Program-made: the position numbers and the translations under genes
The notes under the pieces: model-generated
What the model was told of the DNA's origin: nothing
Database searches by the model: none
Seen by the model: only the letters and a program-made list of their open reading frames with translations
From: Flavobacteriales bacterium
Lineage (GTDB): Bacteria > Bacteroidota > Bacteroidia > Flavobacteriales_D > Parvicellaceae
Assembly: GCA_025210295.1 (NCBI GenBank)
Contig: JAOASC010000016.1
Span: 186,001-250,000, forward strand
Direction of reading: 5' to 3'
DNA: 64,000 nucleotides
In this document: positions 40,306 to 59,800 of the stretch, piece after piece
Numbering within the stretch: position 1 is the first letter of the stretch
How the letters are laid out: each line of letters starts with the position of its first letter

Positions 40306-43300
40306 CTATTTAGCCAACTCTTCGGCCTCAATCAACGAAATTTGTCTATCTCCTACAAAAGCAACTACTTTTGCTTCAGTAATTCCTTTGTCTACAAACT
40401 TTTGTTTTAATTCATTAGCCTCGGCTTCAGTATCGACTTTACCACAATAATAAGTTTGTTTATTATTATAGTTTTTCTTTTCGATTCCTAAATAGCCAAG
40501 CTCTAAGAAAACTTTACCTGTTGAAATAGGCATTGTTTCTTTAAAGGTCCCTAACTCTACCCTATAGATTAATTTGGTATCTACAATTGATATTGTGTTC
40601 TCAGCATTTTTTTCGATATCCTTATCAATTTGATTTTCTTTTTCCATTAAAATAAACTCTTCTCCTTCTTCTATTTCTACAATTTTTGCATCTGTTAATC
40701 CATCTTGAACAAATGATGCCCAGATTTCTGCAACTTCATCTTTTGTCAAGAATACCCCACAGTAATATTGAGTAGCAGCATCGTTGATTTTATTTCTTTT
40801 TATTTTAGCCTTTTTATTGGTTAATAAAGCCTGTGCTATTGGAGTTGGTACTGTTCCATAATACACTCCTAAATCGACATAATAAGTGCTGTTATCTTTT
40901 TCTTCAACTGCATTTTGAGTACTGGTATTACTGCTTTGAGCAGTATTTGGTGATTCAGGTACGGAATTAGTAATATTCTCTGTGTTATCATCTTCATTAG
41001 TTGGTACAGACTCAATTACAGAATCCAACTCTTTTTGTTCGTTTCTAACCTTTAGTTGTTCTGATCTTAATAATTCCAAATTCTTACTAACTTTCTCTTT
41101 TTGAGCATCAGGAATATTTGAAATCAACAGTTTCATGTTTTCATTAATATCAGCATCAACTTTTGCTTTCCATATATTTAAAACGTCTTGTTTTTCTGAG
41201 TTAGCACTTTCAGAATATTGTTGATTTATTGCAGCGTATTCTTGTTTTTTATTGTCAATGTATGACTTAGCAAAAACTCCTGTTTCTTCTGCTAACTCAT
41301 TGTCATTTGTTTCTGATTGAGTAACATTTTCAACTTCTGTATTTGGATTGGAAGCACTTCGATCTGTTGAGACATTATCAGAATTAGACTCTTCACTATT
41401 ATTGATAGGAGATTCATCTTGAGATTGATTACTATTAGATGTTCCTCCCTCAACTTTATTCGTAAATGCAGCCTCACCTCTTTCTTGAATAATTTGTTGT
41501 GCCTGAGCTAATGATACGCGATCTCCATTGTAATAAGCAATGACAAATGCATCTGGAATTCCTTTTGCTCTAACTTCATTTTTACGCCCATCAGCATCTT
41601 GTACAGATTTATAGATACCAGTAGTATACTTATATAATCCATTCACATATTTTGTTACTAAAGGAGAAATATTAAATGTTCCTGTTTTTGCTATTGGTTT
41701 AGAGAAAGCTCCTACCTGAACGGTATAAAATAATCCTTGGATATTTTCAACAGCATTAACTTCAGCTGCATCTTCCCCTAAGTTTCTAACATATTCTGGA
41801 ACTTCTTCCTCTACTACTGATGTATTTTCTTCGTTGGTGTTAGTCGAGTTTTCTTCATTAACATTTGTCTCTTCCTCAGTATTTGAAGGACGATTGGTTT
41901 CTTCCGCTGTATTTGACTCTGTATTTTGTGGTGTTTCGTTTACTGCTAACACTTCAGAAGTCGCATTATTGGTATAAGCTCTAGCCTCAGCAATACTAAT
42001 TCGTTTACCATTTAATATCGCAACTACAAAGGCATCATTATACCCTAACCCTCTAATTTGATTTTTAGAAACATTAGCTGTTTCAAAGTTTACAAAATAC
42101 CCTACTCTATATCTAGTGATATCATCTCTAATTCGCTCTGCACTAATTGGTGCAAATCCTTTGAATAAATCTTGAGGTATTGGCTTTCTGAACGCTCCTA
42201 CTTGAACTTTATACACTAAGCCTTTAGGATTTTTAGGATTCAATGGTATTGGATTAGACTCAGAATAAACACTTTGTTGAGTATCATTATTAATAACAAC
42301 AATATTAGAAGTTAAATCCTCAGGAGCTTCAAATTTAGAAGAAGTTAGGTTGTTTAATGTTAATGTTGGAGTTGGTTTTTCTTCTACCTTTTCTAATGGT
42401 GTTTTTTCATAATTTGACAACATTAATCCACGAATATCATTTTGAAATTCTTCATCAAATAATGACAATAAATCAAATTGCTCTTGTTCTACTAGGTCTT
42501 TTTTCTCATTAATTTCATCTATAATACCTGCTATTGAATCTTGCTTTTCATTATTAATCTCAGCTTGTTCGTATAATTTATCAGCAATTGCTATAAACTT
42601 CTGCTTTTCATCTTCCGATTCAGCGTTTTTAGCCTTTTCCTCATACTTACGTGCTTTATTTTCTTGCTGTTTAGCCAAGTTCATATAACTACGCATCAGT
42701 TCTTCCTCTGCTTTTAACTCTTTTAAGAATTGTTCTATAGCTAACTGTTTAGCATAAATCTCATCATAATTATCAGCTGATCTTACTTTTTCTACATCAG
42801 ATTGAGAAAGGTTTGTTAACAACAATTCATTTTCTAATACTTCTTGTTCTTTTGCTTCTACTCTAGCCCCTTCTTCTTTTAGTTTTTCGGCTATTTGTTC
42901 CTGAACTTCAGCTCGCTGTGAATAAACTTCTGCCTCTTGGATTACCTTAGTTCTGTGTTTTTTCTTTACCGTTTGTGCGCTATCTCTTAACTCTCCTGCT
43001 CTTGTAGAGTATTCATAAGCTAAATTGTCTGCTTTATTTGCTGCAGCAATAATTTCTGTTGACGTTCTTTCGTCTTCATTTTCAGACACTGTCGCTATCT
43101 TATTTTCATCAACATTATAGCTATTTACAACTGCATCTGCATAAAGCTTACTAGCTTTAACTTTGTAAGCTGCACTCGTTTTTTCTTTCGCTAAGGCCTC
43201 ATTCAATTTTTCGTTTTTCTCAACAACACCTTTTATTCCAGCAGCTTCATTTCTCAATTGATTGGCTTCATTAGCTAACTGCTCTGCTTTAGCTTCATAT

Positions 43301-46300
43301 TCTACAGCTTGTTTATACGCATAACTGTTCTCATCCACTTCAGCTGTTAATAACGTTTTTGCTTCTTCTAATTCTTCAGAAGCTAATTGTTGATCGTTTT
43401 CAGAAGCTTGTTTTAGGTCGTTAGCCAATTTCAAAGCTGTTTTTGATTTTTTTGTTTGGGCTTTAGTAATTTTCTTATCTATACTTGCAATTGTTTTATC
43501 ATCACTTGCCTCACTCTTTTGTGCTTCTAGTGTCTCTATAGTCGTATTATAGGATTTAACTTTAGCTACTGTTGATTCATTTTCAGTGATAATCTCATTT
43601 GCTGAAGAACTAGTAAATTCAACATGCTCTGTTAAATCTTTAGATTGAGTATTGGTTGAAACTTCATAAACATCTAAGTTTTCTTTCCCTGAATAAAATT
43701 CAATACCTTCTACGTTCTCGTTAAGTTTAGAAGCTTGTTTTTCTTCTGAAGAGACTGTTTTATTGTCTGCTTGAACAGCTGCAAAAACAGGATTTTCTTC
43801 TAATAACGCATTTTTAACTTCTGATAACTCATCATTCTTTTCTTCTAATTGTTCTTCTAACCAGTCAATTTTTTCTTGGATTATCGCCTCCTCTTCTATG
43901 GTTATGTTTCCTTTAATTGCAGCTTCATTGAGTTCTATTTCTTCTTCTAATTGAGCAATCCAATTATTGTATACCGTTTGCTTTTCTTCATTTGTTTCTA
44001 CGACATCCAATTCGTTTGAATAGTTCTCAAAAACAGCTTTTTGTTCATTTAAACTCGTAACTGTACTTTCTGTAGTTGTATTTTCATTTTGACTTGTACT
44101 ACTTTCCTCTTGCGTATTCTCTTCTGCATTAGCATTTGTTTCATTACTATTGGCTAATTCATTTTCAGCTGAAGAATTTTCAACTTCATTATTACTTTCT
44201 TCACTAGTATTTTCATTTGATGCTGCTGAATTCTCTTGTGAGTTGCTAGTATTAATGCTATTCTCTTCATTAACACTATTATCTACCTCTGCTACAGCAT
44301 TTTCACTATTGGTATTATTGTTACTTTCTTCTTCATTATTACTGCTATTTTCAGTATTAGAATTATCAGGATCAGTTGTTTCATTGGTTGAACTTGAAGC
44401 ATTATCAGCTAAGGCAGTCAAATCTTCTTCTTTACTCCTAACATTCTGTTGTTCTGCTCTAAGCAGTTCAAGGTTTTTACTAACGATTTCTTTTTCATCA
44501 TCAGGAATATTTGAAGTCAATAATTTCATATTCTTATTCACCTCTGTATCAACCTTAGACTTCCAATTGGCTAAATATGCTGCTTTTTCATCATTGGGTA
44601 TCGTTGAATATTCCTCTTCTAAATTATCAAAATCTCTTTTTTGGTTTTCAACATAGCTACTTGTCAACAATTCGTTTTGAGTATTGGATGAGTTTTCTAT
44701 CGTTTCATTTTCAACAAATAACTCTTCTTTTTCTCCTATATATGTTGGACTATAATCTTCTTCTACTGTTTCTTCTATTAAATAAATGGCTTCTTTCTGA
44801 TTATCAATTGCAGCCAGTTGTAAGGCATGAGCTTCTTTTAGTTTCTCTGCTTTTGCTGCTTTATTTTCAGTAAACGAAGCTTCTTTAATTAATTCCTTTG
44901 CTTCTTTATTTTGGGTTACAAATTTTTCTTCAAGTAATTTTGCTAATTGATAATTTTCATCCTTAATATAATTATTATCCTCAGCTCTAGCTGATTTTAA
45001 CAAAGTTGTCAATTTATTCTGATTGGCTTCAAATTCAGCATTATCTATCTCATGGATACGCTCCCCTAAGTCAGCTTCTAATTGATATTGTTTTTCTAAC
45101 TTATTATCTATTTGATTTTGAATTATTGTTTTCTTCTTCTCTTTTTTCGTCTCCGATAACTGTTGTTCTAATTGTTCTATTTCCTGCTCTACAACAGTCA
45201 ACTCATCCACTTGAGCTATGAGTTCTTCTTTCATTGTATTAGCTCTTTCACTTTCGTATTCTGAAGTGCTAGTAAATGCCCCTTCAAACTCAGAAGCTAT
45301 TGAACTGGTATTTTCTATTTCATCCACCAATTCTTGATATTCTTCTGATTTTTCTACTGCTTGTTGAGCTGCCGACTTTTCAATAATAGAAGTATTGGTT
45401 TCAACAACATTTTGTTTTTCAGCTTTTAAACGTTCTAGGTTTTCTTTTTGCGCAATTAAATCAGCCTTTTTCTGAGGATCATTCTCAGTAGTTATTTTTT
45501 GTTCCAATTCATTGATATCGTTATCAATAATATTTAACCAATCCTCTGCTTTTTGATTCTCTTCATTAATTTGAGTTTCATTAATTGCTACTGATGACTC
45601 ACTTTCCTCAATTGTTGCCAATTCAGATTCTAACGCTGATTTTTCAGTTTCTTTTTCATTTTTTTGAGTTTTTAACCAATCTATCTTAGTCGCTAATGTC
45701 TCTTTTATTTTTCCCTCCTGAGCTTCTTGATAATCGCTCTCTGTTGTATTTATTTCTCCATCGATATAGGTAATCCATTCATCACTTAATCGAATTCTTT
45801 GCTCTACTTCTTCTTTTCTGGAAGAACTATTATTTTTAGCTGCTTCTACTCTTTCTTCAAATGGTTCGAACTTTTTTCGTTCTTCATTAATGATTTCATC
45901 TTTTTCTGTTGCTGTCAAACTAGCTACTTCATCCACTTGACTTTCCTGTTCTACAATAGCAGCGATTTCTTCTTCAATAAAATTAAGATCTACTTCTTTG
46001 TTTGATTTTTGCTCATTTAAAAGATTTAATTTTTCTGTTGCTTCAGCTTTTTCTTTCGGTGTTGATGCTAATGCTAACTGATCTTCAACATCCATTATTT
46101 CACTATCTAAAGCAGCAATCCAATCTTCCGTAATTTTTTTCTTAGCTGTAGCTACTTCTTTTTCTGTTCCATCAGTATCAATTGCTTTTAAATCACTTTC
46201 ATAGCTCGAGTAATTTTCAGTAATTTCTTCTTTTAAGGTAGAGACCTCACTTTCAGATAGGTTTACTTGAGTAGAATTTTCTTCAGAAGTAGAGTTTTCT

Positions 46301-49137
46301 TCAGAAGTAGAGTTTTCAGTATTACTTGCTTCAGCCATCAATTCCTCTAATGCTTCTAATTCGCTTGTTTTTAATGCTTTTTGTTGTTTAAGCCATTCTA
46401 AGTAATATGCTAATTTTGACGACTCCTTAGCTTCAGTAGTTGAAGCGATATCAGCTTCAGTCTCTTGGATTTTAGTTTCAATAGTCGCTATCCAATTTTC
46501 TAAAATTTCTTTTTTCTTTTCAACATCTTGGGATGTTTCTTCTGATAGGCTTTGTAGTTGACGCTCATAATCGCTAAACTCCTCTTCTTTTGCTGCAAGT
46601 AATGTTTCTTTTTCCTCTTCTGTCAACTCAGTACTTTCTGTTGTTTCCGTACCTTCTATTGTTTCATTTTCTGAAGAAGCATTCGTATTTTCATTATTCG
46701 TTGAAGTGTTATTTTCAGAAGTGTTATCAGCAAGTTCAGTTTCTTGGTGTTGACTTAAACTATTCTCATTTTGAGAGATACTATTTTCTAATTCATTAGA
46801 AGCTAGATATTCTTTAATTTGTTCTTTCTCCTCTTCTGTCAATTCAACAGTTGTTCCAGCATCAATATCATCGTATAAGTTTGACATTAAATCAACCTGA
46901 TGGCTTAATACATCTGCTTCTTCTTGCAAACGTTTTGACTTTTCAAAACTTTCTTTTGCTAATTCATCATTTAATTGTAATTGCTCTTTAATATCGTCGA
47001 TTTGGCGTTGAATTGTTGGTTGATCTTTTTTCTTTGCTTTTTCCAACTCTCTATTTAGACTACTCAACCTTAGGTTCAGTTCATCATCAGCCTCACGATA
47101 TTCTTGTGCTTCTCGATTAGCTTTATCAGCTTCTTCTTGTTTTTGTTTGGCCTTTTCAACAATTTCATCAAAACCAGATTTATAGTTAGGCTTATCACTT
47201 ATTAAACTGTCAATTCTAGTTTGTAATTGTTTTAATGCTGCTATCGCTTTATCGTGTGAATTTTCATTTACTGCTTTTTCAATTGCTACGGCTACATTTT
47301 TAGCGTCAGTAGCTTCAACTTGTTTTTTATCATATTCTTTTTTCAAAGAGTTCGCTAAATTTAAGGCTGTTGTTGCCAACATATTTAAATCTTTTGATTG
47401 CGCATGAGATTTTTTGGCTAACTCTAATTTTTCTTGTTTTTCTAATGGATTCGAAATCGTTTCCACTTCTTTTAACAATTCATCAGCTTGTTTGGTCAAT
47501 TCTTTAGCTTGATTGCTTTTATTATTAGCTACAGTGTAAGCAGCTTCCATTCTCTTTTTTAGATCGTTTGCTTCTTCTTGAACTTCATTTGCTTTCTCTG
47601 AACTCAAAGCTACTAAATCGTCTACAGTATAGTTCTCATTCAATGCTTCTGTAACAATTTCATTTTCATTTTCGAAGTTATTATAAAGTGAATCTGGGAA
47701 GTCATCAGCATTTGGATCTGGATCTGCCATTCCTTTAAGTACCTTAGCCATGATCTCAGCTGCATTGGGTACTTCTTGATCAAACATATTATTAATCACC
47801 AATTTTTCAACTCCCCCATCTTTAACTAAAGCCAAAGATTGTTTTAATGGTTTTACCACTTTTTGAGCGGGAACCTCTACAACACCTGTATGAATTTTTT
47901 CACTTTCTGGTGTCTCAACAATAAATTTATATTTTCCACTTCGTGGCAATATAATAATATAATTACCGATTTTATCAGGATTATAAATCCCCTCAATTTC
48001 GCCTGTCTGCATGTTCTCCACTTTAATGGTAGCAGCATTATCCTCAGGGTTAATTTTATTTTCAAAACTTCCCGCTAAGATTACATTAACAATTGGGAAT
48101 GTCTCCACTTTAACTTTATACACATCAAGGTATCCTCCCTTTGCAGCTCGTGATGATGAAAAATAAGCATTTTCAAAATTGGGATCAACAATGTACATGA
48201 TATCATCGTCGGGAGTGTTAATCTTATAATCAAGGTTTTTGGGAGTTCCAAACTGATTAATTTGAGTATCGTAATCTACCTTAAACACGTCATACCCTCC
48301 CATACTATTGTGCCCTTTGGAACTAAAATAAAATGTTTTTCCATCAGCATGTAAGAAACCATAAGCATCGTCATAAGGAGTATTTATCGATTCGGGCAAC
48401 TTTTCTGGTTCTCCCCAACCTCCTGATGCTTTTCTTCTAACCATGTACAAATCTAAACCTGTGCTTCCATCTTTTCCATAACTGGAATAGAATAACACAT
48501 CTTGATTTAATGGAGGGAAATAAACAACAGATTGATAACCTATTTTTTTATCATATTTAGATTGAAACTCTGAAGAAACTAAAATTTTACCTCCAATTTC
48601 AGAAAGGTCATAAGAGTATTGAAAACGTTGAAAACTAGATTCCGTTTTTTCATACACCACCAACTCGGTTAAGTTTTGTAATAGTTTTTTCCCATTAGAA
48701 CACATTTGGATGTGCAAGTCCACTTGTAAATCTTTTTTATAATTAGGATCTCCTTCAGCTTTAAATTTTTGATAATATTTTAAAGCAGCTTTAAAATTAT
48801 AGTTCAGATGGTATGATTTTCCTAAAAAGAAATAAACTCGGCTATCTCCACCTCCTCCTTTATTTGCAGCAAATTTTAGATACCTTAAACTCTTCTCTTT
48901 ATCTTCGTCAGCATACATCAAACAAACTCCGTATTTAAAGTTAAACTCTGGACTTGTTTGATTTAAACTTAGAAAATGTAGGATATGAGGTGTTGCTTCG
49001 ACATACTTACCTTTGTCGAATAGTTTATTAGCATGTTTCTTTCTGTCTTCTTCATTTTTAAATTCTTGAGAAAAAATCCCCAAAGTAGAAAAGACTATAA
49101 GAGTGAATAGGCAATATTTTATCAAACGATTATTCAA
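40306..49137 (-). CDS. Giant TPR-PD40-CRD-coiled-coil-SPOR envelope protein
   Basis: The protein has 2943 residues. Order: signal peptide (1-24, no lipobox); TPR-like region (about 30-170); PD40 propeller (about 200-340, with YFSSKGHNSMGGYDVF); carboxypeptidase-regulatory-like sandwich (about 344-435); about 1800 residues of Glu/Lys/Ala coiled coil with at least seven copies of a 'NW-I-x-x-[LI]-[DE]' module (Trp near 881, 1005, 1120, 1198, 1522, 1724, 2655) and Asn/Ser/Glu/Thr linkers; four SPOR-like domains (starting near 2303, 2466, 2749, 2853). TPR-PD40-CRD is the front of the type IX component PorE, whose OmpA end is replaced here. It probably spans the periplasm with SPOR domains on septal or denuded peptidoglycan (inference). 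No ATG is in frame; the signal peptide starts at a TTG. The gene follows plsY by 37 bases. Confidence 0.85.
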   Translation of the reverse strand: MNNRLIKYCLFTLIVFSTLGIFSQEFKNEEDRKKHANKLFDKGKYVEATPHILHFLSLNQTSPEFNFKYGVCLMYADEDKEKSLRYLKFAANKGGGGDSRVYFFLGKSYHLNYNFKAALKYYQKFKAEGDPNYKKDLQVDLHIQMCSNGKKLLQNLTELVVYEKTESSFQRFQYSYDLSEIGGKILVSSEFQSKYDKKIGYQSVVYFPPLNQDVLFYSSYGKDGSTGLDLYMVRRKASGGWGEPEKLPESINTPYDDAYGFLHADGKTFYFSSKGHNSMGGYDVFKVDYDTQINQFGTPKNLDYKINTPDDDIMYIVDPNFENAYFSSSRAAKGGYLDVYKVKVETFPIVNVILAGSFENKINPEDNAATIKVENMQTGEIEGIYNPDKIGNYIIILPRSGKYKFIVETPESEKIHTGVVEVPAQKVVKPLKQSLALVKDGGVEKLVINNMFDQEVPNAAEIMAKVLKGMADPDPNADDFPDSLYNNFENENEIVTEALNENYTVDDLVALSSEKANEVQEEANDLKKRMEAAYTVANNKSNQAKELTKQADELLKEVETISNPLEKQEKLELAKKSHAQSKDLNMLATTALNLANSLKKEYDKKQVEATDAKNVAVAIEKAVNENSHDKAIAALKQLQTRIDSLISDKPNYKSGFDEIVEKAKQKQEEADKANREAQEYREADDELNLRLSSLNRELEKAKKKDQPTIQRQIDDIKEQLQLNDELAKESFEKSKRLQEEADVLSHQVDLMSNLYDDIDAGTTVELTEEEKEQIKEYLASNELENSISQNENSLSQHQETELADNTSENNTSTNNENTNASSENETIEGTETTESTELTEEEKETLLAAKEEEFSDYERQLQSLSEETSQDVEKKKEILENWIATIETKIQETEADIASTTEAKESSKLAYYLEWLKQQKALKTSELEALEELMAEASNTENSTSEENSTSEENSTQVNLSESEVSTLKEEITENYSSYESDLKAIDTDGTEKEVATAKKKITEDWIAALDSEIMDVEDQLALASTPKEKAEATEKLNLLNEQKSNKEVDLNFIEEEIAAIVEQESQVDEVASLTATEKDEIINEERKKFEPFEERVEAAKNNSSSRKEEVEQRIRLSDEWITYIDGEINTTESDYQEAQEGKIKETLATKIDWLKTQKNEKETEKSALESELATIEESESSVAINETQINEENQKAEDWLNIIDNDINELEQKITTENDPQKKADLIAQKENLERLKAEKQNVVETNTSIIEKSAAQQAVEKSEEYQELVDEIENTSSIASEFEGAFTSTSEYESERANTMKEELIAQVDELTVVEQEIEQLEQQLSETKKEKKKTIIQNQIDNKLEKQYQLEADLGERIHEIDNAEFEANQNKLTTLLKSARAEDNNYIKDENYQLAKLLEEKFVTQNKEAKELIKEASFTENKAAKAEKLKEAHALQLAAIDNQKEAIYLIEETVEEDYSPTYIGEKEELFVENETIENSSNTQNELLTSSYVENQKRDFDNLEEEYSTIPNDEKAAYLANWKSKVDTEVNKNMKLLTSNIPDDEKEIVSKNLELLRAEQQNVRSKEEDLTALADNASSSTNETTDPDNSNTENSSNNEEESNNNTNSENAVAEVDNSVNEENSINTSNSQENSAASNENTSEESNNEVENSSAENELANSNETNANAEENTQEESSTSQNENTTTESTVTSLNEQKAVFENYSNELDVVETNEEKQTVYNNWIAQLEEEIELNEAAIKGNITIEEEAIIQEKIDWLEEQLEEKNDELSEVKNALLEENPVFAAVQADNKTVSSEEKQASKLNENVEGIEFYSGKENLDVYEVSTNTQSKDLTEHVEFTSSSANEIITENESTVAKVKSYNTTIETLEAQKSEASDDKTIASIDKKITKAQTKKSKTALKLANDLKQASENDQQLASEELEEAKTLLTAEVDENSYAYKQAVEYEAKAEQLANEANQLRNEAAGIKGVVEKNEKLNEALAKEKTSAAYKVKASKLYADAVVNSYNVDENKIATVSENEDERTSTEIIAAANKADNLAYEYSTRAGELRDSAQTVKKKHRTKVIQEAEVYSQRAEVQEQIAEKLKEEGARVEAKEQEVLENELLLTNLSQSDVEKVRSADNYDEIYAKQLAIEQFLKELKAEEELMRSYMNLAKQQENKARKYEEKAKNAESEDEKQKFIAIADKLYEQAEINNEKQDSIAGIIDEINEKKDLVEQEQFDLLSLFDEEFQNDIRGLMLSNYEKTPLEKVEEKPTPTLTLNNLTSSKFEAPEDLTSNIVVINNDTQQSVYSESNPIPLNPKNPKGLVYKVQVGAFRKPIPQDLFKGFAPISAERIRDDITRYRVGYFVNFETANVSKNQIRGLGYNDAFVVAILNGKRISIAEARAYTNNATSEVLAVNETPQNTESNTAEETNRPSNTEEETNVNEENSTNTNEENTSVVEEEVPEYVRNLGEDAAEVNAVENIQGLFYTVQVGAFSKPIAKTGTFNISPLVTKYVNGLYKYTTGIYKSVQDADGRKNEVRAKGIPDAFVIAYYNGDRVSLAQAQQIIQERGEAAFTNKVEGGTSNSNQSQDESPINNSEESNSDNVSTDRSASNPNTEVENVTQSETNDNELAEETGVFAKSYIDNKKQEYAAINQQYSESANSEKQDVLNIWKAKVDADINENMKLLISNIPDAQKEKVSKNLELLRSEQLKVRNEQKELDSVIESVPTNEDDNTENITNSVPESPNTAQSSNTSTQNAVEEKDNSTYYVDLGVYYGTVPTPIAQALLTNKKAKIKRNKINDAATQYYCGVFLTKDEVAEIWASFVQDGLTDAKIVEIEEGEEFILMEKENQIDKDIEKNAENTISIVDTKLIYRVELGTFKETMPISTGKVFLELGYLGIEKKNYNNKQTYYCGKVDTEAEANELKQKFVDKGITEAKVVAFVGDRQISLIEAEELAK
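46271..46318 (-). repeat. 18-base tandem repeat in a low-complexity linker
   Basis: Units start at 46271, 46289 and 46307; the first two differ by one base and the third is partial. They encode SEENST repeats in the giant protein. Such near-perfect short repeats suggest recent slippage and possible length variation between strains. Confidence 0.7.
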
Positions 49138-49174: not shown

Positions 49175-49819
49175 TCACTTTTTCTTTAAATTAAAAGGCA
49201 TTTTACCTTCTTCATGCTTTAATAAGCGTTCTATATTTTTTCGATGTCTAACGACCACTAAAACTGCTAATGCGATAGAAAAATAAATTAAAGAGTTGGA
49301 ATCTGTTTTAAAAACAAAGATAGTCACCAATGGAAAAGCTGTTGCAGCAATAATTGCTCCTAGCGAAACATATTGGCTAATGAGGTATACCATCAAAAAT
49401 ATACCAAAACAAACTGCTGCTGCTGGAAAGTTAATCGCTAAAACAATCCCTAACAAAGTCGCCACTCCTTTACCTCCTTTAAAACGTTCGTAGATTGGAA
49501 ACACATGTCCTAATACTGCTGCAGCTCCAATAGACATTTGCAAGTTTATATAAGCATTGCTTCCTATTTCAAAGTCAGAATATTTGGATAATAAATATAC
49601 AGAAGCCCACCCTTTTATTATATCAAAAAATAAAACAGGAAAACCTGCTCGCTTTCCTATTGTTCTAAAAGTATTTGTAGCCCCAGCATTTTTACTCCCA
49701 AAATCTCTTACATCAACACCGAAAAACCACTTTCCTACCCAAATTGAAGATGGTACGGATCCTACTAAATAAGCTATAATAATAGCCATTATGTTATACC
49801 CAGTAAAAACTTCGCTCAT
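49175..49819 (-). CDS. plsY: Acyl-phosphate:glycerol-3-phosphate acyltransferase PlsY
   Basis: The protein has 214 residues and five membrane helices. Family motifs are GSVPSSIWVGK, GSKNAGATNTFRTIGK, FPIYERFKGGKGVATLLG and VVVRHRKNIERLLKHEE. It transfers the acyl group from acyl-phosphate to glycerol-3-phosphate, the first step of phospholipid synthesis. A promoter with both parts (TATATTTG at 49866-49873, TTG at 49895-49897) lies upstream. The giant SPOR-protein gene follows after 37 bases without a terminator, so a common transcript is possible. Confidence 0.95.
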   Translation of the reverse strand: MSEVFTGYNIMAIIIAYLVGSVPSSIWVGKWFFGVDVRDFGSKNAGATNTFRTIGKRAGFPVLFFDIIKGWASVYLLSKYSDFEIGSNAYINLQMSIGAAAVLGHVFPIYERFKGGKGVATLLGIVLAINFPAAAVCFGIFLMVYLISQYVSLGAIIAATAFPLVTIFVFKTDSNSLIYFSIALAVLVVVRHRKNIERLLKHEEGKMPFNLKKK

Positions 49820-49923: not shown

Positions 49924-52116
49924 CTAGAAAGTTACTCCCATTATACACACATCATCAATCTGCTCTTTATCACCTTTCCACTCTTCAAATTTTTGATTTA
50001 GGATCTTGCTTCGTTCTTCAATAGGTTTTGAATTTATTATTCTCAATAGGTTTCTCAGCCTTGAATAATAGTACTTCTTTCCCTTCTCTCCTCCTTTTTG
50101 ATCTGGGAATCCATCGGTACTCATGTATACAGAAGTTCCAGGTTGAATTATTTTTTTATGGCTTGAAACATTAAAGTTTTCTGAAATACCTAAAAATAGA
50201 TTATCTCCTTTTATAGCCGTTAACTCATTATCGGGATCAATAATATAAAGAGGGTTATGTAATCCTGAATATTCTAATTCATGAGTTACATGATTGTATG
50301 CGCACATTGCGATATCTAAGCCATGTTTAATCTGCCCTCCTTTTTTCTCAGACATTTTATCTTTTAGCCGTTCATGCAAATATTCCAATACTGTTGCTGT
50401 AGATTCAACCTCTTTTTCCAAAATAATTGAATTGATAATATTTAAACTAATGAGTGTCATAAAAGCCCCAGGAACTCCATGTCCTGTACAATCTGCTACA
50501 GAGAAAAAAGTTTTATCTCCTTTCCTGTGAGCCCAATAGAAATCACCACTTACAACATCTTTAGATTTAAAATAAATAAAAGATTCTGGCAATAAATTAT
50601 TAATCTCATGAATCGTTGGGAAAATTCTTTGTTGAATATTTTTTGAATATTCAATACTCTCCAACATTTCATTTCTGTTTTTCTCAATAATTTTCTTTTG
50701 ACCACTAATAACCCTTTGTTGCTTTTTGGCTATTCTTAGGCGTTTATAAATCAATACAGAAAAAACACTAATCAACAACATTCCAAAGCCAATTGAATAA
50801 ATAATAATTAGCTGATTCCTTGCTTTTTCATCTGCTACTGCTTTTTCTTTTTCTGCTTTTGCATCAGCCAATGCCTTTTGTTTGGCTCGTTCCTCTTCTT
50901 CAATCGCTTGTTGCTTCTCAAATTCAAACTTAGCTTCTTGTTTCCCCAACTCTCGTTGTTTATCCTGATTAAATAAACTATCCTGTAGCATTACATTCTG
51001 CTCATAAAATTTGAGGGCTCTTCCATTCTTCCCTAATACTTTATAGACTTGATATAATTTTGAGGTCACCCCTACTTCATTACCTAACATTGTAGAGTTA
51101 CCCTGACATATTTTATAACTCGCTAAATAATATTTGAGCGCTTTATTATATTTTTTTTGATAAAATAGAAAGTCTCCATATCGCACATTTGCATTATAAA
51201 TATGATGTTGGTCATTTCCTAACTCTGTAATTTCAATCGATTTTTTTATATAATACTCAGCAGTGTCTAGTATGGCTTGATCCAGTTTTTTTATTCCTAA
51301 GAAATTAGGATTAATAATTTGCACACTGTCCTTATTGTGCTCATGATAATACAAATACACTTCAGCTATATTACCATATATTAAACTCAATCTAGAAGCT
51401 GTAGGTTTATTAAGTGTATCCACGTATATATTTACTGCTTTTAAAGAAGCTTTAATCGACAAGGCGTTTTTATTCATTTCTTTGTACTGATACCCTTGAC
51501 TTAAGTAGGCTCTGGCTAAAGAAGGATAATCTTCAGTTTCTAAAGCTATCTGGATTACTTTTTGATTATAATCAAATGCCTTTTGTAAATCATTGAGTTG
51601 CCCATAAATGATTCCAAGTGCTCTATAGGAACTTAAAGGAGTACCTAATTTTTCATAATACTTTGAACTCTCAAAAAAAGAAGTTATCGATCCTGCGACA
51701 TCCCCACTGATGTATATTGTTCTACCTAACAAATCATAGGCTTTTGCCATTTCTAGTGTATCACTTTCATTAAGTAAACGAATGCTTTCTTTTAGTGTCT
51801 TAACTGCTTTATCATATTCTTTATTAGCATTATAATTTTGGGCCTTAATTCGATATGCTCTAGCAAACAATCCTCGATCTCCAATTTGTTCTGATAATTG
51901 AATAATTTTATTACTAACATCAATGGCACTATCATAGTTATTGATGTTCCGATAAAACACATTCTTTTTATACAATAATTGATAACGTACTGTATCCTCC
52001 ATTGTATTCTTTAACTCCCTATTAATAGAGTCCAATTCATGGTGCTGCCCTCTAAAAGTAAAGGTGGTAAAAAGACATAAAGCAAACAGTAAAAAATTAG
52101 GAAACAACACTTTCAT
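49924..52116 (-). CDS. TPR-membrane-SpoIIE phosphatase, downstream paralogue
   Basis: The protein has 730 residues: signal peptide, TPR repeats (about 30-400, typical KVIQIALETEDYPSLARAYLS), Glu/Ala/Lys-rich coiled coil, one membrane helix (about 434-456), a second coil and a SpoIIE/PP2C domain (about 520-730). Metal-binding Asp residues are in VVSGDFYW, VADCTGHGVPGAFM and DDVCIMG, so the phosphatase looks active. The TPR array is on the outer side and the phosphatase inside, suggesting a periplasmic signal controlling dephosphorylation of an anti-sigma-antagonist-type or other Ser/Thr-phosphoprotein. Its ATG overlaps the stop of the upstream paralogue by one base (TAATG), so translation is coupled. 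Confidence 0.9.
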   Translation of the reverse strand: MKVLFPNFLLFALCLFTTFTFRGQHHELDSINRELKNTMEDTVRYQLLYKKNVFYRNINNYDSAIDVSNKIIQLSEQIGDRGLFARAYRIKAQNYNANKEYDKAVKTLKESIRLLNESDTLEMAKAYDLLGRTIYISGDVAGSITSFFESSKYYEKLGTPLSSYRALGIIYGQLNDLQKAFDYNQKVIQIALETEDYPSLARAYLSQGYQYKEMNKNALSIKASLKAVNIYVDTLNKPTASRLSLIYGNIAEVYLYYHEHNKDSVQIINPNFLGIKKLDQAILDTAEYYIKKSIEITELGNDQHHIYNANVRYGDFLFYQKKYNKALKYYLASYKICQGNSTMLGNEVGVTSKLYQVYKVLGKNGRALKFYEQNVMLQDSLFNQDKQRELGKQEAKFEFEKQQAIEEEERAKQKALADAKAEKEKAVADEKARNQLIIIYSIGFGMLLISVFSVLIYKRLRIAKKQQRVISGQKKIIEKNRNEMLESIEYSKNIQQRIFPTIHEINNLLPESFIYFKSKDVVSGDFYWAHRKGDKTFFSVADCTGHGVPGAFMTLISLNIINSIILEKEVESTATVLEYLHERLKDKMSEKKGGQIKHGLDIAMCAYNHVTHELEYSGLHNPLYIIDPDNELTAIKGDNLFLGISENFNVSSHKKIIQPGTSVYMSTDGFPDQKGGEKGKKYYYSRLRNLLRIINSKPIEERSKILNQKFEEWKGDKEQIDDVCIMGVTF

Positions 52117-54299
52117 TATTCAAAACTAATTCCCATTATACACACATCGTCAATTTGTTCTTTGTCTCCTTTCCAGTCCTCAAACTTTTGATTCAAGACC
52201 CCTCTTCTATTATCTACAGGCATTGCATCTACAACTCTTAATGAGTTTCTTAATCTTGAATAATAATATTTCTTCCCCTTTTCTCCCCCTTTTTGATCAG
52301 GAAACCCATCGGTACTCATATAAACAGAATCACCAGATTGAATTTCTATTTTATGACTTGTTACTTGAAAGTTATTCGATATCCCTAAGAACAAATTATC
52401 ACCTTTGATTTCTCTCAATTCATTATCTGAATTAATAATATACAATGGATTATGTAAACCAGAATACTCTAATTCTTTCGTTTTATGATTATATGCACAC
52501 ATTGCAATATCTAGCCCATGTTTTACTTGATCTTCTTCACTCACAGACAAACGCTCCTTTAACCTAATATGTAGACGTTCTAAAATCGTTGCTGTTGAGT
52601 CTACTCCATCTTCTAAAATAATAGCATTAATTAAATTCAGACTAATTAACGTCATAAACGCTCCAGGAACACCATGTCCTGTACAATCAGCAACTGAAAA
52701 GAATGTTTTATCACCTTTTTGGTGTGCCCAATAAAAATCACCACTGACAACATCTTTAGGTCTAAAATAGACAAACGAATTAGGTAATAAGGCTTGAATC
52801 TCCTCTATTGTTGGAAATATTCTTTGTTGGATATTCTTTGAATACTCTATACTCTCCAACATTTCATTTCTATTTTTCTCAATCGTTTTTTTCTGCTTTT
52901 CAATAACTATTTGTTGTGCTCTAGCAATCTTCAATCTTCTATAGATTAAAGCAGAGAAAATACTAATCAAAATTAACCCTAAAGCAATTGAATAAGTGAT
53001 AATTTGTTGATTTTTTTCCTTTTCTTTTGCTACTGCTCTTTCTTGTTCAGCCCTAGCATCTTCTATTGCTTTTTGTTTAGCTCTTTGAGCCTCTTCTTGC
53101 GCTTTTTGTTTTTCATATTCAAACTTAGCTTCTTGCTTCCCTACATCTCTTTGTTTATCCTGATTAAACAAAGTATCTCTCAAAGCCACAAACTCCTCAT
53201 AAAACTTTAATGCTTTCTTCTCATCTCCTAATTTCTTATACACCTTATACAGTTGTTCTGAAACTTTTTTTCTATCAAAAGTCATCCCCTCATTTTCTTT
53301 TGATATACGATAACATTTTAAAAACTCCTTTTCAGATCGCTTAACTTTACCTTGATAATAATATAAATCACCATAGCCGTAAAAAATATAAAATAAGTTT
53401 TTATTGTTTTTAGAGGCTATAGCATAAGATTTATCAATATAGTATTCGGCAGTATCTAGCATGGCCTTTTTGATATCTTTAACCCCATTAAATAAAGGAT
53501 TTACGATCTTAATACTATCGGGAGCATTTTTATAATAGTAAATATATACATCAGCAATATTACCATATACCACTCCTAACCCTCTATTTTCTGGATCTTT
53601 CAAAATATTTAAGTAGACATCTTTTGCTTTTTGAGAATACTTGTAGGAAGTCTCATGGTTTATTAACATTAAATGATAATATCCCTCAGCCAAATAGCCA
53701 TTAGCTAAAGCATGATAATTACTATCTGCTTTTGCTTTTTCTATGTAGATTAAATTATATTTTGATGCATTTTTTTCGTCATTTAATTCAGAATAAGTAG
53801 TTGCAATATTTTTGGTTATCCACAAATCATCACCTAATAAATTATAATAATGTGCTGATTTAAAATAATACTTTAATGCTTCAGAAAAATTTTCTTCTCT
53901 CGTATAGCGATGGCCTATATCTTGGTACAACAACGCTATATCAGCTGTATCATCGGATGATAATGAGTTGATATAGTCTAATATATATTGAAGAGCTTCC
54001 TCTTTACTTCCTTGTAAATTCATATTATGAGCAACAACCCTCTTACTCCAAGTAATCTTCTTTTGATCCTTTGATTGTTCGGCTAACTTTAGCATCTCAT
54101 AACTAATACTAAGCGCCTCGTCTATACTATCATGCTCCCTGTAATATCTATTTATCCAATACAGGTTTTGTAATGCTGCGGAGTCTGTATCTGCTTTTTC
54201 TAGTTCTATCCTTAAAGAATCTAAATTTGAGTATTGAGCATAACTAAAATTATTAATTCCGAAAAATAGGGTTATCGTAATCAAAAAAATCAATTTCAT
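52116..54299 (-). CDS. TPR-membrane-SpoIIE phosphatase, upstream paralogue
   Basis: The protein has 727 residues with the same plan as its downstream neighbour: signal peptide, TPR repeats, coiled coil (AQEEAQRAKQKAIEDARAEQ), membrane helix near 430-452, and SpoIIE domain from about 516 with VVSGDFYW, VADCTGHGVPGAFM and DDVCIMG. The two phosphatase domains are nearly identical over long stretches while the TPR parts differ more. This implies duplication followed by change of the sensing half. No kinase, anti-sigma factor or STAS-domain gene is nearby. Genes of this type are frequent in Flavobacteriales, where targets are mostly unknown. Confidence 0.9.
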   Translation of the reverse strand: MKLIFLITITLFFGINNFSYAQYSNLDSLRIELEKADTDSAALQNLYWINRYYREHDSIDEALSISYEMLKLAEQSKDQKKITWSKRVVAHNMNLQGSKEEALQYILDYINSLSSDDTADIALLYQDIGHRYTREENFSEALKYYFKSAHYYNLLGDDLWITKNIATTYSELNDEKNASKYNLIYIEKAKADSNYHALANGYLAEGYYHLMLINHETSYKYSQKAKDVYLNILKDPENRGLGVVYGNIADVYIYYYKNAPDSIKIVNPLFNGVKDIKKAMLDTAEYYIDKSYAIASKNNKNLFYIFYGYGDLYYYQGKVKRSEKEFLKCYRISKENEGMTFDRKKVSEQLYKVYKKLGDEKKALKFYEEFVALRDTLFNQDKQRDVGKQEAKFEYEKQKAQEEAQRAKQKAIEDARAEQERAVAKEKEKNQQIITYSIALGLILISIFSALIYRRLKIARAQQIVIEKQKKTIEKNRNEMLESIEYSKNIQQRIFPTIEEIQALLPNSFVYFRPKDVVSGDFYWAHQKGDKTFFSVADCTGHGVPGAFMTLISLNLINAIILEDGVDSTATILERLHIRLKERLSVSEEDQVKHGLDIAMCAYNHKTKELEYSGLHNPLYIINSDNELREIKGDNLFLGISNNFQVTSHKIEIQSGDSVYMSTDGFPDQKGGEKGKKYYYSRLRNSLRVVDAMPVDNRRGVLNQKFEDWKGDKEQIDDVCIMGISFE

Positions 54300-54790: not shown

Positions 54791-56419
54791 TTACTTCAAT
54801 ACATTGACGTGACCGTAAAGTTCACACTTTTCATTTGTAAAAGCATCTTTAATTTCAATTTTCCAGATGTAAACTCCATTTTCTACAAAACTACCTGACT
54901 TGCAAGTTCCATCCCATCCAACGGCAACATTGTAAGACTCAAACATGAGCTCACCCCAGCGATTGAATATTGCCATATGAAAGCTGTCAGGATCATATCC
55001 ACTTGTAAATACCGGTTGAAAATACTGATTGTACTGATCTCCGTCTGGTGTGAATGAATTAGGAATATAATATGCTTGATAACCCTGAACTTTCACTACT
55101 TGAAAAGCAGAGTCAACACAACCTATATCATTGTAGGCATATAAAACTGTTGTATAATGTCCAGACTTCATTGTTGAATAAACATGACTAGGATTTTCAC
55201 TTATCGACGCCCCACCATCTCCAAAAGACCAACTGTAATTTGTAGCATTTTGCGACTGATTTAAAAAAGTAACTGATGGATCTTCAATAAATAACGTACT
55301 TGGATTGTAGGTAAAGCTTGCGATTGGTTGATCTTCAGCACAAACTAGATCTACATGAGTTAATGATGAGCTACAACCATTACTGTTGATAGACAATGTC
55401 ACGTCATAACAACCATCGTCCTGATAAACGTGATTTGCCGCCCCGCATCCACTATAGGTGTTTCCATCTCCAAAATCCCAAGTACAAATCGCGCCTGAGT
55501 CAATGCCTGATGAATTATTACTGAATTCTGTATTAATTGGAGCACATCCTAAAGGATTCAAAACAGTAAAATCTACCACCGGAGTTTCTTTTACATCCAC
55601 AAGAATTGAAGACTCATCTTGACATCCATTAATATCGGTAACTCTTAAAGTGACATTGTAGCTTCCACTAGCTGCATAATTGTGAGTGGGATTAGCCCCA
55701 GCCCCATTATTTCCATCTCCAAAATCCCACAAATAAGTCGCGATTCCTGCATCTGCAGTCGAGTTAGTACCATCAAACAAAAAACTATTCCCAAGAAGAC
55801 ACTGCGGAGTTTGAGCCACTATATCAGCCTCCCCCATACATGTTTGAGTAATCACTAAATCTTCTGTGGCAATATCCATTCCGTTTCCTCCAACGCTGTT
55901 GAAATGAATCACATAATGAATAGTTGGCGATGTGGCTATTCCTGTCAAGGTTATTTGCTGATAAACGCCATTTAGCGTTAAAGTAATATCGTCTAGGACA
56001 GTTCCATAATTGTCTTCCAGGCTCAAAGTTACATTTGTTCCTCCATAAGATTCCCTAATCCACATACTGGCACTCACTTCGCAACCAACCGAGACACCTG
56101 TAACTTGTCTGTCATAGATATCAACATTGGTAATACCACTTTGAATATTAAACCATCCAAAATAGGCACCGCTCATGATCATACTTGCATTATGGTTACT
56201 CCCTCCGGTCCCATATAAAACAGCTCCATTAACTCCAACGATTACAGAAGTATCGAATGGCTCATTCAACAAAGTTGTTGAACAACTTGTTCCTTGTGCA
56301 ATTGCAGCAGACAGAGAGAGTAAAACAATTAAAAATGTGATAAAAATACCTTTCAAAAAAACGGAAAATTTTACGAGGCTATTCAAGCCATCTGGTAAGC
56401 TTAAACTGGGGTAATACAT
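54791..56419 (-). CDS. PKD-domain protein with gliding-motility-type (type B) sorting domain
   Basis: The protein has 542 residues. A rather long signal region (about 42 residues, ending SAAIAQG) precedes a jelly-roll-like domain (about 45-195). Three PKD domains follow, each with the WDFGDGN or WSFGDGG hallmark (near residues 228, 314 and 395). The last about 90 residues (YYIPNSFTPDGDQYNQYF, then FNRWGELMFES and a final VNVLK) are the gliding-motility-associated C-terminal domain, the type B type-IX signal. It is a surface protein, perhaps an adhesin. A TAAATTTG promoter lies 53 bases upstream. Confidence 0.93.
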   Translation of the reverse strand: MYYPSLSLPDGLNSLVKFSVFLKGIFITFLIVLLSLSAAIAQGTSCSTTLLNEPFDTSVIVGVNGAVLYGTGGSNHNASMIMSGAYFGWFNIQSGITNVDIYDRQVTGVSVGCEVSASMWIRESYGGTNVTLSLEDNYGTVLDDITLTLNGVYQQITLTGIATSPTIHYVIHFNSVGGNGMDIATEDLVITQTCMGEADIVAQTPQCLLGNSFLFDGTNSTADAGIATYLWDFGDGNNGAGANPTHNYAASGSYNVTLRVTDINGCQDESSILVDVKETPVVDFTVLNPLGCAPINTEFSNNSSGIDSGAICTWDFGDGNTYSGCGAANHVYQDDGCYDVTLSINSNGCSSSLTHVDLVCAEDQPIASFTYNPSTLFIEDPSVTFLNQSQNATNYSWSFGDGGASISENPSHVYSTMKSGHYTTVLYAYNDIGCVDSAFQVVKVQGYQAYYIPNSFTPDGDQYNQYFQPVFTSGYDPDSFHMAIFNRWGELMFESYNVAVGWDGTCKSGSFVENGVYIWKIEIKDAFTNEKCELYGHVNVLK

Positions 56420-56898: not shown

Positions 56899-59800
56899 TT
56901 ATTTAACAATTACATTGCTGTTAAAGACTTGGTTATTAGTAACAACTCTTACTAAATAAACTCCTGATTCAACATTTCCTAAAGAAACTTCTTGTTGAGC
57001 TCCAGCAGCCATCACATAAGTGTTACTATAAATAACTTTTCCTTGTACATCTATAACTTCCATTACAATGTTACTTTCATTTTTACCATTAGTAATAAAG
57101 AAAGTACCATCATTAGGGTTAGGATAAACTCCAAATGTTGTAGCTTCTCCTTCTGTGATATTTGTACAATCAACTAAGTTAACTGTTATTTGAGTAGAAG
57201 CTACTGGACAGATACCATTATCTACAACATATGTAAATTGGTATGGTCCATTAGGTAATCCATCAGCAATAAATCTATTCCCATTTAATAGCCCTGTACC
57301 TGTATTATCATTCCAAACACCTCCAGCATCAACTGTACCAGTTAATCCATCAAATAAGAATACATCTCCATTACTACAAGCTTGGAAGTTAGAGATTGCA
57401 GAACCAGTGTTCGTTTGAGTTGCTGCATTAATAGCTACAGTAGCAGTATCAGCATCACATGTATTAGAAACAATGTAATAAACTTCGTTTCCAGTTAAGC
57501 TAAATGCTCCAGTATTAACAGTAGTATCATCTACAATCGCAGAAGAGTTACTTGGATATTCCCAATCTCCTAGGTTTGTCAATTGACCTGTTAAGTTACT
57601 CCATAAATCAACTGTATCTCCAGCACAAACAGAAAGAGGCGTAGCTGGTCCTTCTCCAGCGTATCCATCTAATGAATAATCTGAAACAATTAAGTTAATC
57701 AAACCACTTTGAGTAGAAGAAGATCCACCTACATAGAACATAACAGTATCACCTGCAGTAGCACCACAAATCTCAACTGAACCTCTTGATGACTGACCAC
57801 AAACGCTAAAATTCGATGAATTGTATGCAATTTGCCCAAATGTTTCCATACTATCACAAATGATTGTATCGTGAGCATAAGCACCAACCACTGAGTTAAA
57901 GTCAGAACCACAAGTAGCGATTAATAAGTGTCCAGAAGTAGGTATAACTGTTTTAAACCATACAGTATTATATTGACTACCAGGTAATGCACTTTCATTA
58001 GCCTGTAATGTTGCACCAATATTAGAGAATACTCTTGCAGAGAAATCTGTATTAGGAGCTACAAAGATAGCATCACATGTTGTATCGTTTAATACTGGAG
58101 TAGCAACAAATAATGGTCCTACCCAATCACTTTCATCTCCACCTCCACAATTTGCACGAACGTAGAACTCATATACAGCTCCTAAGTTTAATCCAGCAAT
58201 TGTATCGATAGTATCAGCAGCAACAACCATAGTTCCAGAACCTTGAGTAAAGCCTATTTCTCCATACTCAATATCCCATGATGTTTCAATTGCACCAGCA
58301 TTCCAGTTAATAACTACTGAATCTTGTGACTGATATACCTCTGCTAAATCAGTAGGTCTAGGGCATGAAATAATTTCTAATTTAATATTATCAATACCTA
58401 ATCCATCTGAATTATATGGATAGTTATCTTCTTGACCAAATTTAACTTGGAAAGTAGTTGAGAACATTTGTGAGTTATCACCAAGGACTTCAGCAACAAA
58501 TACACCTTGATCTACGCTAAGCCAGTTATTAGTAACTCTTCCTGACCAATCATAAACCTCAATCCATGAATCGGTATCACTTCCTCTTACCCAAACTCTA
58601 TCTCCAGAATGATTTTCATCTCCCCAATCAGCAAAGTCGAATGAAAGGAAAACATTATCTGTCAATGTATAGTTTGACATATCTAAAGTTAAAACTAGTT
58701 CATTAGCAACTACACTTCCGCTTGTATGTACATCTAAGAAAGCTGCTCCATTTCCTCCATTATTCTCAGGAGCAAATGTACCAATAGTTAATCTACCAAA
58801 TGCATTATCATCAGTATAGAATGCCCAAGCTTTATCTGTTCCACAATATACATTTCCAGTTCCTACTATTGAATCATTAATTGTCTCAAAATCTTCAACA
58901 AATGGTAAGGTTACTGGTTGTAAACTATTACAAGTCTCAATGTTAGTTTGGAAACCAAAAGGTCCTACCCAGTTACTAACATTACCAACAGCACAAGAAT
59001 CTTGAACGTAGAACTCATAAGCTGTATTTGGAGATAATGTATCTATCGTTAATGGGTTGAATGCATTGGTAATTAAATACCCTGTTCCAGGAGTAAATCC
59101 AGCAGGCCCAAACTCAACATTCCAGTTAGTTGCACCTCCAGTTGTCCAACCTAATACAGCAACAGTATCAGTTAAACCTGTAACTGTTAAGTTAGAAGGA
59201 TCAGCACATGCTGGCTCAAAAATATGAATATCATCGATATACCAACCATCTCTTTGACCACTTCCATCAGACTCTAAAACAAATCTAAAACGAACATTTG
59301 CTACATTATAAGCACTTAAATCAAATGATTCTTTTTTCCACCATGAGTTATCAGGTGTCTCTGTTCCAGTTCCCCAATCAGCATATGAATCTTCGTGGAA
59401 ATATGTTGAATAAGCCCCTGATCCTGTATATGCTGAAGATGGTAAATTTGTGTATGTAGCACCTCCATCTGTAGAGATTTGAACATAACACTCATCATAA
59501 GTACCTTCAGTCTTAGCAATATGCCAAAACTCAATAACAGGTGTAGTTGCAACAGATAAATCTAAAATACCTGTTTCATGTAATATATTTTCATCACTTG
59601 CTGAATAAGCATTATGCATACTTTGAGTTCCTCCATGTGCTAAAGTTGTTGAAAGAGCCCAAGCTACATCACTACTTGATTCATTTTCAAAAAACAATGT
59701 ATTATCTTCAAAATCTTCCATTAGTGGGAATGGATGAGGTCCATAAGCTGTAGTGAAAGACAATGAAGTCCAATTACTTACAGCTCCTACTCCACATGAA

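Follow-up and report, generated by a model that had tools for sequence, protein, structure and literature searches.

The window analysed here is a 64,000-nucleotide stretch of a Flavobacteriales genome, in which one open reading frame of 2943 codons runs without interruption on the reverse strand (Table 1). Its TTG start lies only four codons after the preceding stop, and the same start site was found in homologues. The encoded protein had been described preliminarily as a signal peptide followed by TPR, PD40 and CRD-like domains, a middle of about 1800 residues and four C-terminal SPOR-like regions, and this layout was borne out by Pfam, profiles and structural models. A lone oddity or an assembly artefact was ruled out, as the same layout was found in many genomes of the order. 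The Gln at the end of the signal peptide (Gln24) is invariant among the homologues compared, and a lipobox Cys was absent from all of the 75 full-length members in which it was searched.

Table 1. Position of the giant gene, its domains and its upstream neighbour in the window.
Feature	Residues	Coordinates	Strand	Evidence
Whole gene, 2943 aa		40306..49137	-	single ORF, TTG start; homologues of the same layout
Signal peptide, invariant Gln at end, no lipobox	1-24	49066..49137	-	homologue alignment
TPR domain	about 27-130	48748..49059	-	profile level; Pfam alone E 0.05
PD40 beta-propeller	about 195-345 (Pfam PD40 248-285)	48103..48555	-	Pfam, hhalign
CRD-like domain	about 348-440	47818..48096	-	aligned by hhalign with the CRD of OmpA-type paralogues
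Helical middle, net charge -221	488-2290	42268..47676	-	profile comparison, repeats, lengths
Three-helix unit 1	836-943	46309..46632	-	repeat detection, model
Three-helix unit 2	959-1067	45937..46263	-	repeat detection, model
Three-helix unit 3	1073-1182	45592..45921	-	repeat detection, model
Unit 4, continuous helix shared with unit 3	1160-1260	45358..45660	-	repeat detection, model
Unit 5	1477-1586	44380..44709	-	repeat detection
Unit 6	1679-1786	43780..44103	-	repeat detection
Unit 7, similar to unit 5, between SPOR2 and SPOR3	2608-2716	40990..41316	-	repeat detection
SPOR1, VQVGAF, glycan-contact Gln and Phe retained	2307-2390	41968..42219	-	Pfam, alignment
SPOR2, VQVGAF, glycan-contact Gln and Phe retained	2469-2551	41485..41733	-	Pfam, alignment
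SPOR3, supported SPOR fold, Asp at the contact Gln position	2751-2836	40630..40887	-	AlphaFold, Foldseek, sequence
SPOR4, supported SPOR fold, Glu at the contact Gln position	2855-2943	40309..40575	-	hhalign, AlphaFold, Foldseek, sequence
plsY, 37 bp upstream, kept beside the gene in many relatives		49175..49819	-	Pfam

The head was aligned by hhalign over 446 columns (probability 100) with TPR-PD40-CRD-OmpA paralogues of the same genome, in most of which OmpA was found by Pfam, and this front half recurs in many of the paralogues. When the N-terminal segment was scanned alone, PD40 was detected with a Pfam E of 1.8e-6 (28.1 bits, cut-off 20.9). The TPR domain reached an E of just 0.05 in the window protein alone, and the family profile matched consensus TPR structures down to 2e-37; the CRD-like domain has no direct match in Pfam. 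The best NCBIfam match of the front half was the CHU_0125 family NF053607 (92.5 bits, E 2e-26, cut-off 620), and the PorE family NF052230 scored 72.8 bits against a cut-off of 600. The head is thus nearer to CHU_0125 than to PorE, with both scores far under the cut-off. The front half had been likened to that of PorE, and its homology to the TPR-PD40-CRD part of PorE-type proteins stands, but a specific tie to PorE or to the type IX secretion system (T9SS) is unsupported because the same head occurs in many paralogues, the NCBIfam scores are so low and there is no lipobox. The front half is the general TPR-PD40-CRD scaffold. Finding this scaffold in a protein does not by itself mark the protein as part of the T9SS, which matters for annotation. 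The claim that OmpA is absent and that SPOR repeats occupy the C-terminus held; no OmpA was detected by Pfam in the window protein or with a local OmpA profile in the 75 full-length members.

The middle had been described as some 1800 residues of coiled coil with Asn/Ser/Glu/Thr linkers. It is helical and has such linkers, but it is not one rod. Seven recurring units of about 100 residues were counted, six in the middle and the seventh within the SPOR region, and in a model of residues 826-1270 (units 1-4; pLDDT 85.5, pTM 0.38) each unit consisted of three helices. One long helix joins units 3 and 4 in this model, while the modelled units are otherwise separated mostly by disordered N/S/E/T linkers; confidence is low at model positions 116-132 and 242-246, and the orientations between units are undefined. 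A known fold was also sought for the middle, but Foldseek against the PDB gave no match below E 0.001 (pyocin S5 was best, and a nesprin spectrin-repeat fragment ranked lower), so the claim is limited to three-helix modules. Units 5 (44380-44709) and 7 (40990-41316) are very similar to each other, probably as a result of a recent internal duplication.

The flanks of the middle (about residues 488-800 and 1800-2290) are conserved and its centre is variable; similarity to other families likewise holds at both flanks and fades between about 800 and 1800. From the end of the CRD to SPOR1, the 75 full-length members span 771-2237 aa (median 1334), and within the genus the middle is only 45% identical where the N-terminus is 84% identical. 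It had been suggested that the protein is a periplasm-spanning ruler. Such a ruler or rigid rod would set the distance between the membrane machinery and the wall. A long helical middle between two conserved ends would suit such a role, but the middle varies freely in length and sequence, whole proteins of the family can be as short as 1020-1156 aa, the middle evolves fast within the genus and its modules are separated by disordered linkers, all of which disfavours a ruler and makes it very improbable. A fully helical rod of 1800 residues would be about 270 nm long (estimated at 1.5 angstrom per residue), which far exceeds the periplasm, so the middle must be folded or flexible. Conserved ends with a variable middle are as expected of a leash.

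Four SPOR regions had been proposed on the basis of VQVGAF/VELGTF-type motifs. Scanned as segments, SPOR1 (21.9 bits) and SPOR2 (23.3 bits) pass the Pfam cut-off of 21, while SPOR3 and SPOR4 of the window protein have no Pfam match of their own. The four repeats of the window protein served as the seed of the first SPOR search profile, which was therefore partly circular. Independently of it, a profile of the SPOR1/2 group matched that of the last repeat in hhalign (probability 99.5, E 9e-23), and at E up to 0.01 Pfam SPOR was found in 45/62 relatives of SPOR1-2 and in 10/39 of the last repeat. AlphaFold predicted SPOR3-4 as two beta-alpha-beta-beta-alpha-beta domains (pLDDT 82). Submitted as single domains, these matched the SPOR domains of CwlC (1x60) and FtsN (1uta) in Foldseek with probabilities of 1.00 and 0.99, although the top-ranked matches of the tandem were other ferredoxin-like proteins. 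The assignment of SPOR3 and SPOR4 as SPOR folds is therefore supported by profile comparison and by the predicted model.

In RlpA, Q270 and F274 are the best conserved glycan contacts (PMC6895207). The Gln matching Q270 is present in 61/62 rows of SPOR1-2, where a Phe or Tyr is also retained at the F274 position, but in just 8/39 last repeats (loci L080, L082, L089, L092-L094, L098 and L103). Because the contact Gln is kept in the former and mostly lost in the latter, SPOR1-2 look glycan-competent and the extra repeats look drifted. Targeting to the division site would be compatible with SPOR1/2. Relatives of SPOR1-2 were also sought on plasmids and none were found.

With nothing but the N-terminal profile as query, 80 named loci were recovered, and a search for relatives added 20 more; together these comprised 74 distinct untruncated homologues. 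All 74 combine the same head with 2-5 terminal SPOR repeats, and OmpA was found in 0/74; as both searches began at the N-terminus, they are silent on SPOR tails without the head. Some candidates for homologues lacking SPOR were dismissed: in L039 and L059 the repeats lie in another frame past a stop, indicating a frameshift, and L060, L086 and L063 end at or near contig ends. L114 encodes 672 aa with no SPOR and has 1.5 kb of contig remaining. Apparent frameshifts split the homologue in L039/L059 and in G007:C1:254827-256262, for which sequencing error or decay are both possible.

The family protein was detected in at least 146 of the 177 genomes of the window's order (E 1e-70). The true count must be higher, because shorter or divergent versions occur in G491, G486 and G437. 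Two shortened versions, L189 (8935-12402, 1156 aa) and L191 (9381-12440, 1020 aa), have the head and SPOR-like ends and are located away from plsY. When 296 genomes were sampled evenly from the phylum, only two long-frame matches appeared at E 1e-45; both came from this order, and one was the window genome itself. Two named isolates carry the gene, Brumimicrobium salinarum and Salibacter halophilus. Many of the metagenome-assembled genomes (MAGs) that have it go under the names Crocinitomicaceae, Cryomorphaceae or Flavobacteriales, but some of the MAG names are questionable. In the open-access literature, no paper was found on proteins pairing SPOR with PD40 or with gliding motility, or on Bacteroidota SPOR domain-containing proteins. 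The giant envelope proteins form a Bacteroidota family that is widespread in the order and, as far as we found, undescribed.

The recurrent gene order in relatives is doxX-tpiA-prmA-unknown protein-plsY-giant gene-clpS-M48, where plsY was identified by Pfam and the other named genes are presumed from recognition of their sequences. In the window genome plsY adjoins the giant gene, and the unknown protein is on another contig, after prmA (L180:4781-9184, contig C40). It is a well-conserved secreted protein of about 1,480 aa with no Pfam or NCBIfam match, and it neighbours the giant gene (as U1/U2) in about 50 of 80 relatives. It was considered as an obligate partner, but this was weakened by its presence in 171/177 genomes of the order, including many without the giant protein, and by the lack of linkage in the window genome. 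It is an uncharacterised core protein and, given this distribution, independent of the giant protein.

Among the neighbours conserved in relatives, no gene of the T9SS, gliding, divisome, Tol-Pal or wall-enzyme type was identified, which bears on the proposed tie to the secretion or gliding machinery. A T9SS or gliding accessory would bind a PorP/SprF-like barrel by its head and fix the complex to the wall by its SPOR tail, as PorE does via OmpA. The head is homologous to PorE, which binds both PorP and peptidoglycan (PMC9143113, PMC7192894), and SprA is present in nearly all genomes of the order (175/177). However, the giant protein does not always accompany the T9SS core. At least seven checked genomes (G041, G051, G402, G501 and G371-G373) keep SprA, with the giant gene absent after plsY and not found above threshold genome-wide (for G501, judged by its absence from the match list), although the contigs of G372 and G373 end 1-3 kb beyond the plsY locus. 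Six of these genomes have GldJ above the cut-off, whereas in G041 it scores under it. In addition, the giant protein is not a lipoprotein, it is nearly absent from the phylum sample and its conserved neighbours in relatives include no identified PorP/SprF-like gene. The tie to secretion or gliding was thus not upheld, and an accessory role of this kind appears unlikely.

On balance, we consider it somewhat probable that the protein acts in the periplasm as a flexible tether, linking the outer membrane to septal peptidoglycan processed by amidases. Of the scaffold originally envisaged, anchoring to the wall is probable, given the SPOR repeats at the C-terminus, but the link to secretion or gliding is not retained. 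By analogy with PorE and PorP, the TPR-PD40-CRD head could dock on an outer-membrane partner, while SPOR1 and SPOR2 would bind glycan without stem peptides, which is enriched at the septum. The additional, drifted SPOR copies may serve as spacers or contact other partners. The three-helix modules and acidic linkers between the two ends could form a long flexible leash that tolerates changes in length. The outer membrane would then be held to the wall where amidases act, chiefly at constriction, which could contribute to outer-membrane integrity or daughter-cell separation. CHU_0125, which like PorE is of the TPR-PD40-CRD-OmpA type to which the head is homologous, has been reported to maintain outer-membrane integrity (PMC5891637).

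Some points count against such a tether. As there is no lipobox, attachment of the head must go via a separate partner, and neither a divisome nor a Tol-Pal gene was identified beside the gene in relatives. Possession of a SPOR domain does not guarantee septal localisation. Several lineages have lost the giant gene, which shows that division in the order can do without it.

The protein could instead serve as a scaffold for the enzymes of septal peptidoglycan or regulate them: SPOR would position it, and its head or its acidic helical middle would bring in amidases or synthases. This would parallel E. coli, where DamX and DedD act on class A PBPs (PMC7642682). In favour of this, the contact residues of SPOR1/2 are conserved, and the conserved helical flanks of the middle (488-800 and 1800-2290) offer possible docking sites. 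We regard it as rather unlikely, however, as no wall enzyme or divisome gene was identified beside the gene and the head belongs with outer-membrane scaffolds rather than with any known activator.

A bolder form of the tether is an order-typical machine for outer-membrane constriction, whose propeller end would grip an outer-membrane protein and whose SPOR end would grip fresh, stripped septal glycan, performing part of Tol-Pal's job in one protein. We hold this to be doubtful. The tether as first proposed above would itself be a new type of conserved, mostly single-copy link from outer membrane to peptidoglycan, one that senses stripped glycan and not peptide stems. The envelope division machinery of these bacteria has received little study.

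Compared with known systems, the giant protein shares with PorE (PG1058, T9SS) the order of TPR, beta-propeller and CRD, a probably periplasmic location and a C-terminus that binds peptidoglycan, as predicted for the giant protein. PorE, however, is a lipoprotein of 668 residues and carries a single OmpA domain, whereas the giant family lacks lipobox and OmpA, adds the helical middle of 771-2237 aa and the SPOR repeats, and has no T9SS gene context. The CHU_0125 family of Cytophaga hutchinsonii, the best NCBIfam match of the front half, is likewise a likely membrane-to-wall tether, but it has an OmpA/Pal-like end and no long middle where the giant protein has a SPOR end, and the score is far below 620. 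FtsN, DamX, DedD, RlpA and CwlC share the SPOR fold, and SPOR1/2 have the same glycan-site Gln and Phe. These proteins are far smaller and pair the SPOR domain with other partner domains; to our knowledge, none of them carries a TPR-PD40-CRD head. A 646-aa paralogue in the same genome (L170:3152-5089) has TPR and PD40 followed by SPOR, as in the giant protein, but with a single SPOR repeat (E 5e-18) and no long helical middle, and represents an exchange of OmpA for SPOR.

Other genes were observed alongside. Two adjacent similar genes lie at 49924-52116 and 52116-54299 of the window; in the first, Pfam recognises TPR and a SpoIIE phosphatase domain. Candidate T9SS cargo is encoded at 54791-56419, 56899-61500, 61667-63967 and 24287-26470 (PKD with CHU_C, two fn3, and a subtilase with Por_Secre_tail). 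A 705-aa protein at L179:144-2258 matches DUF6089 weakly and carries three SPOR repeats, the strongest at E 4e-23.
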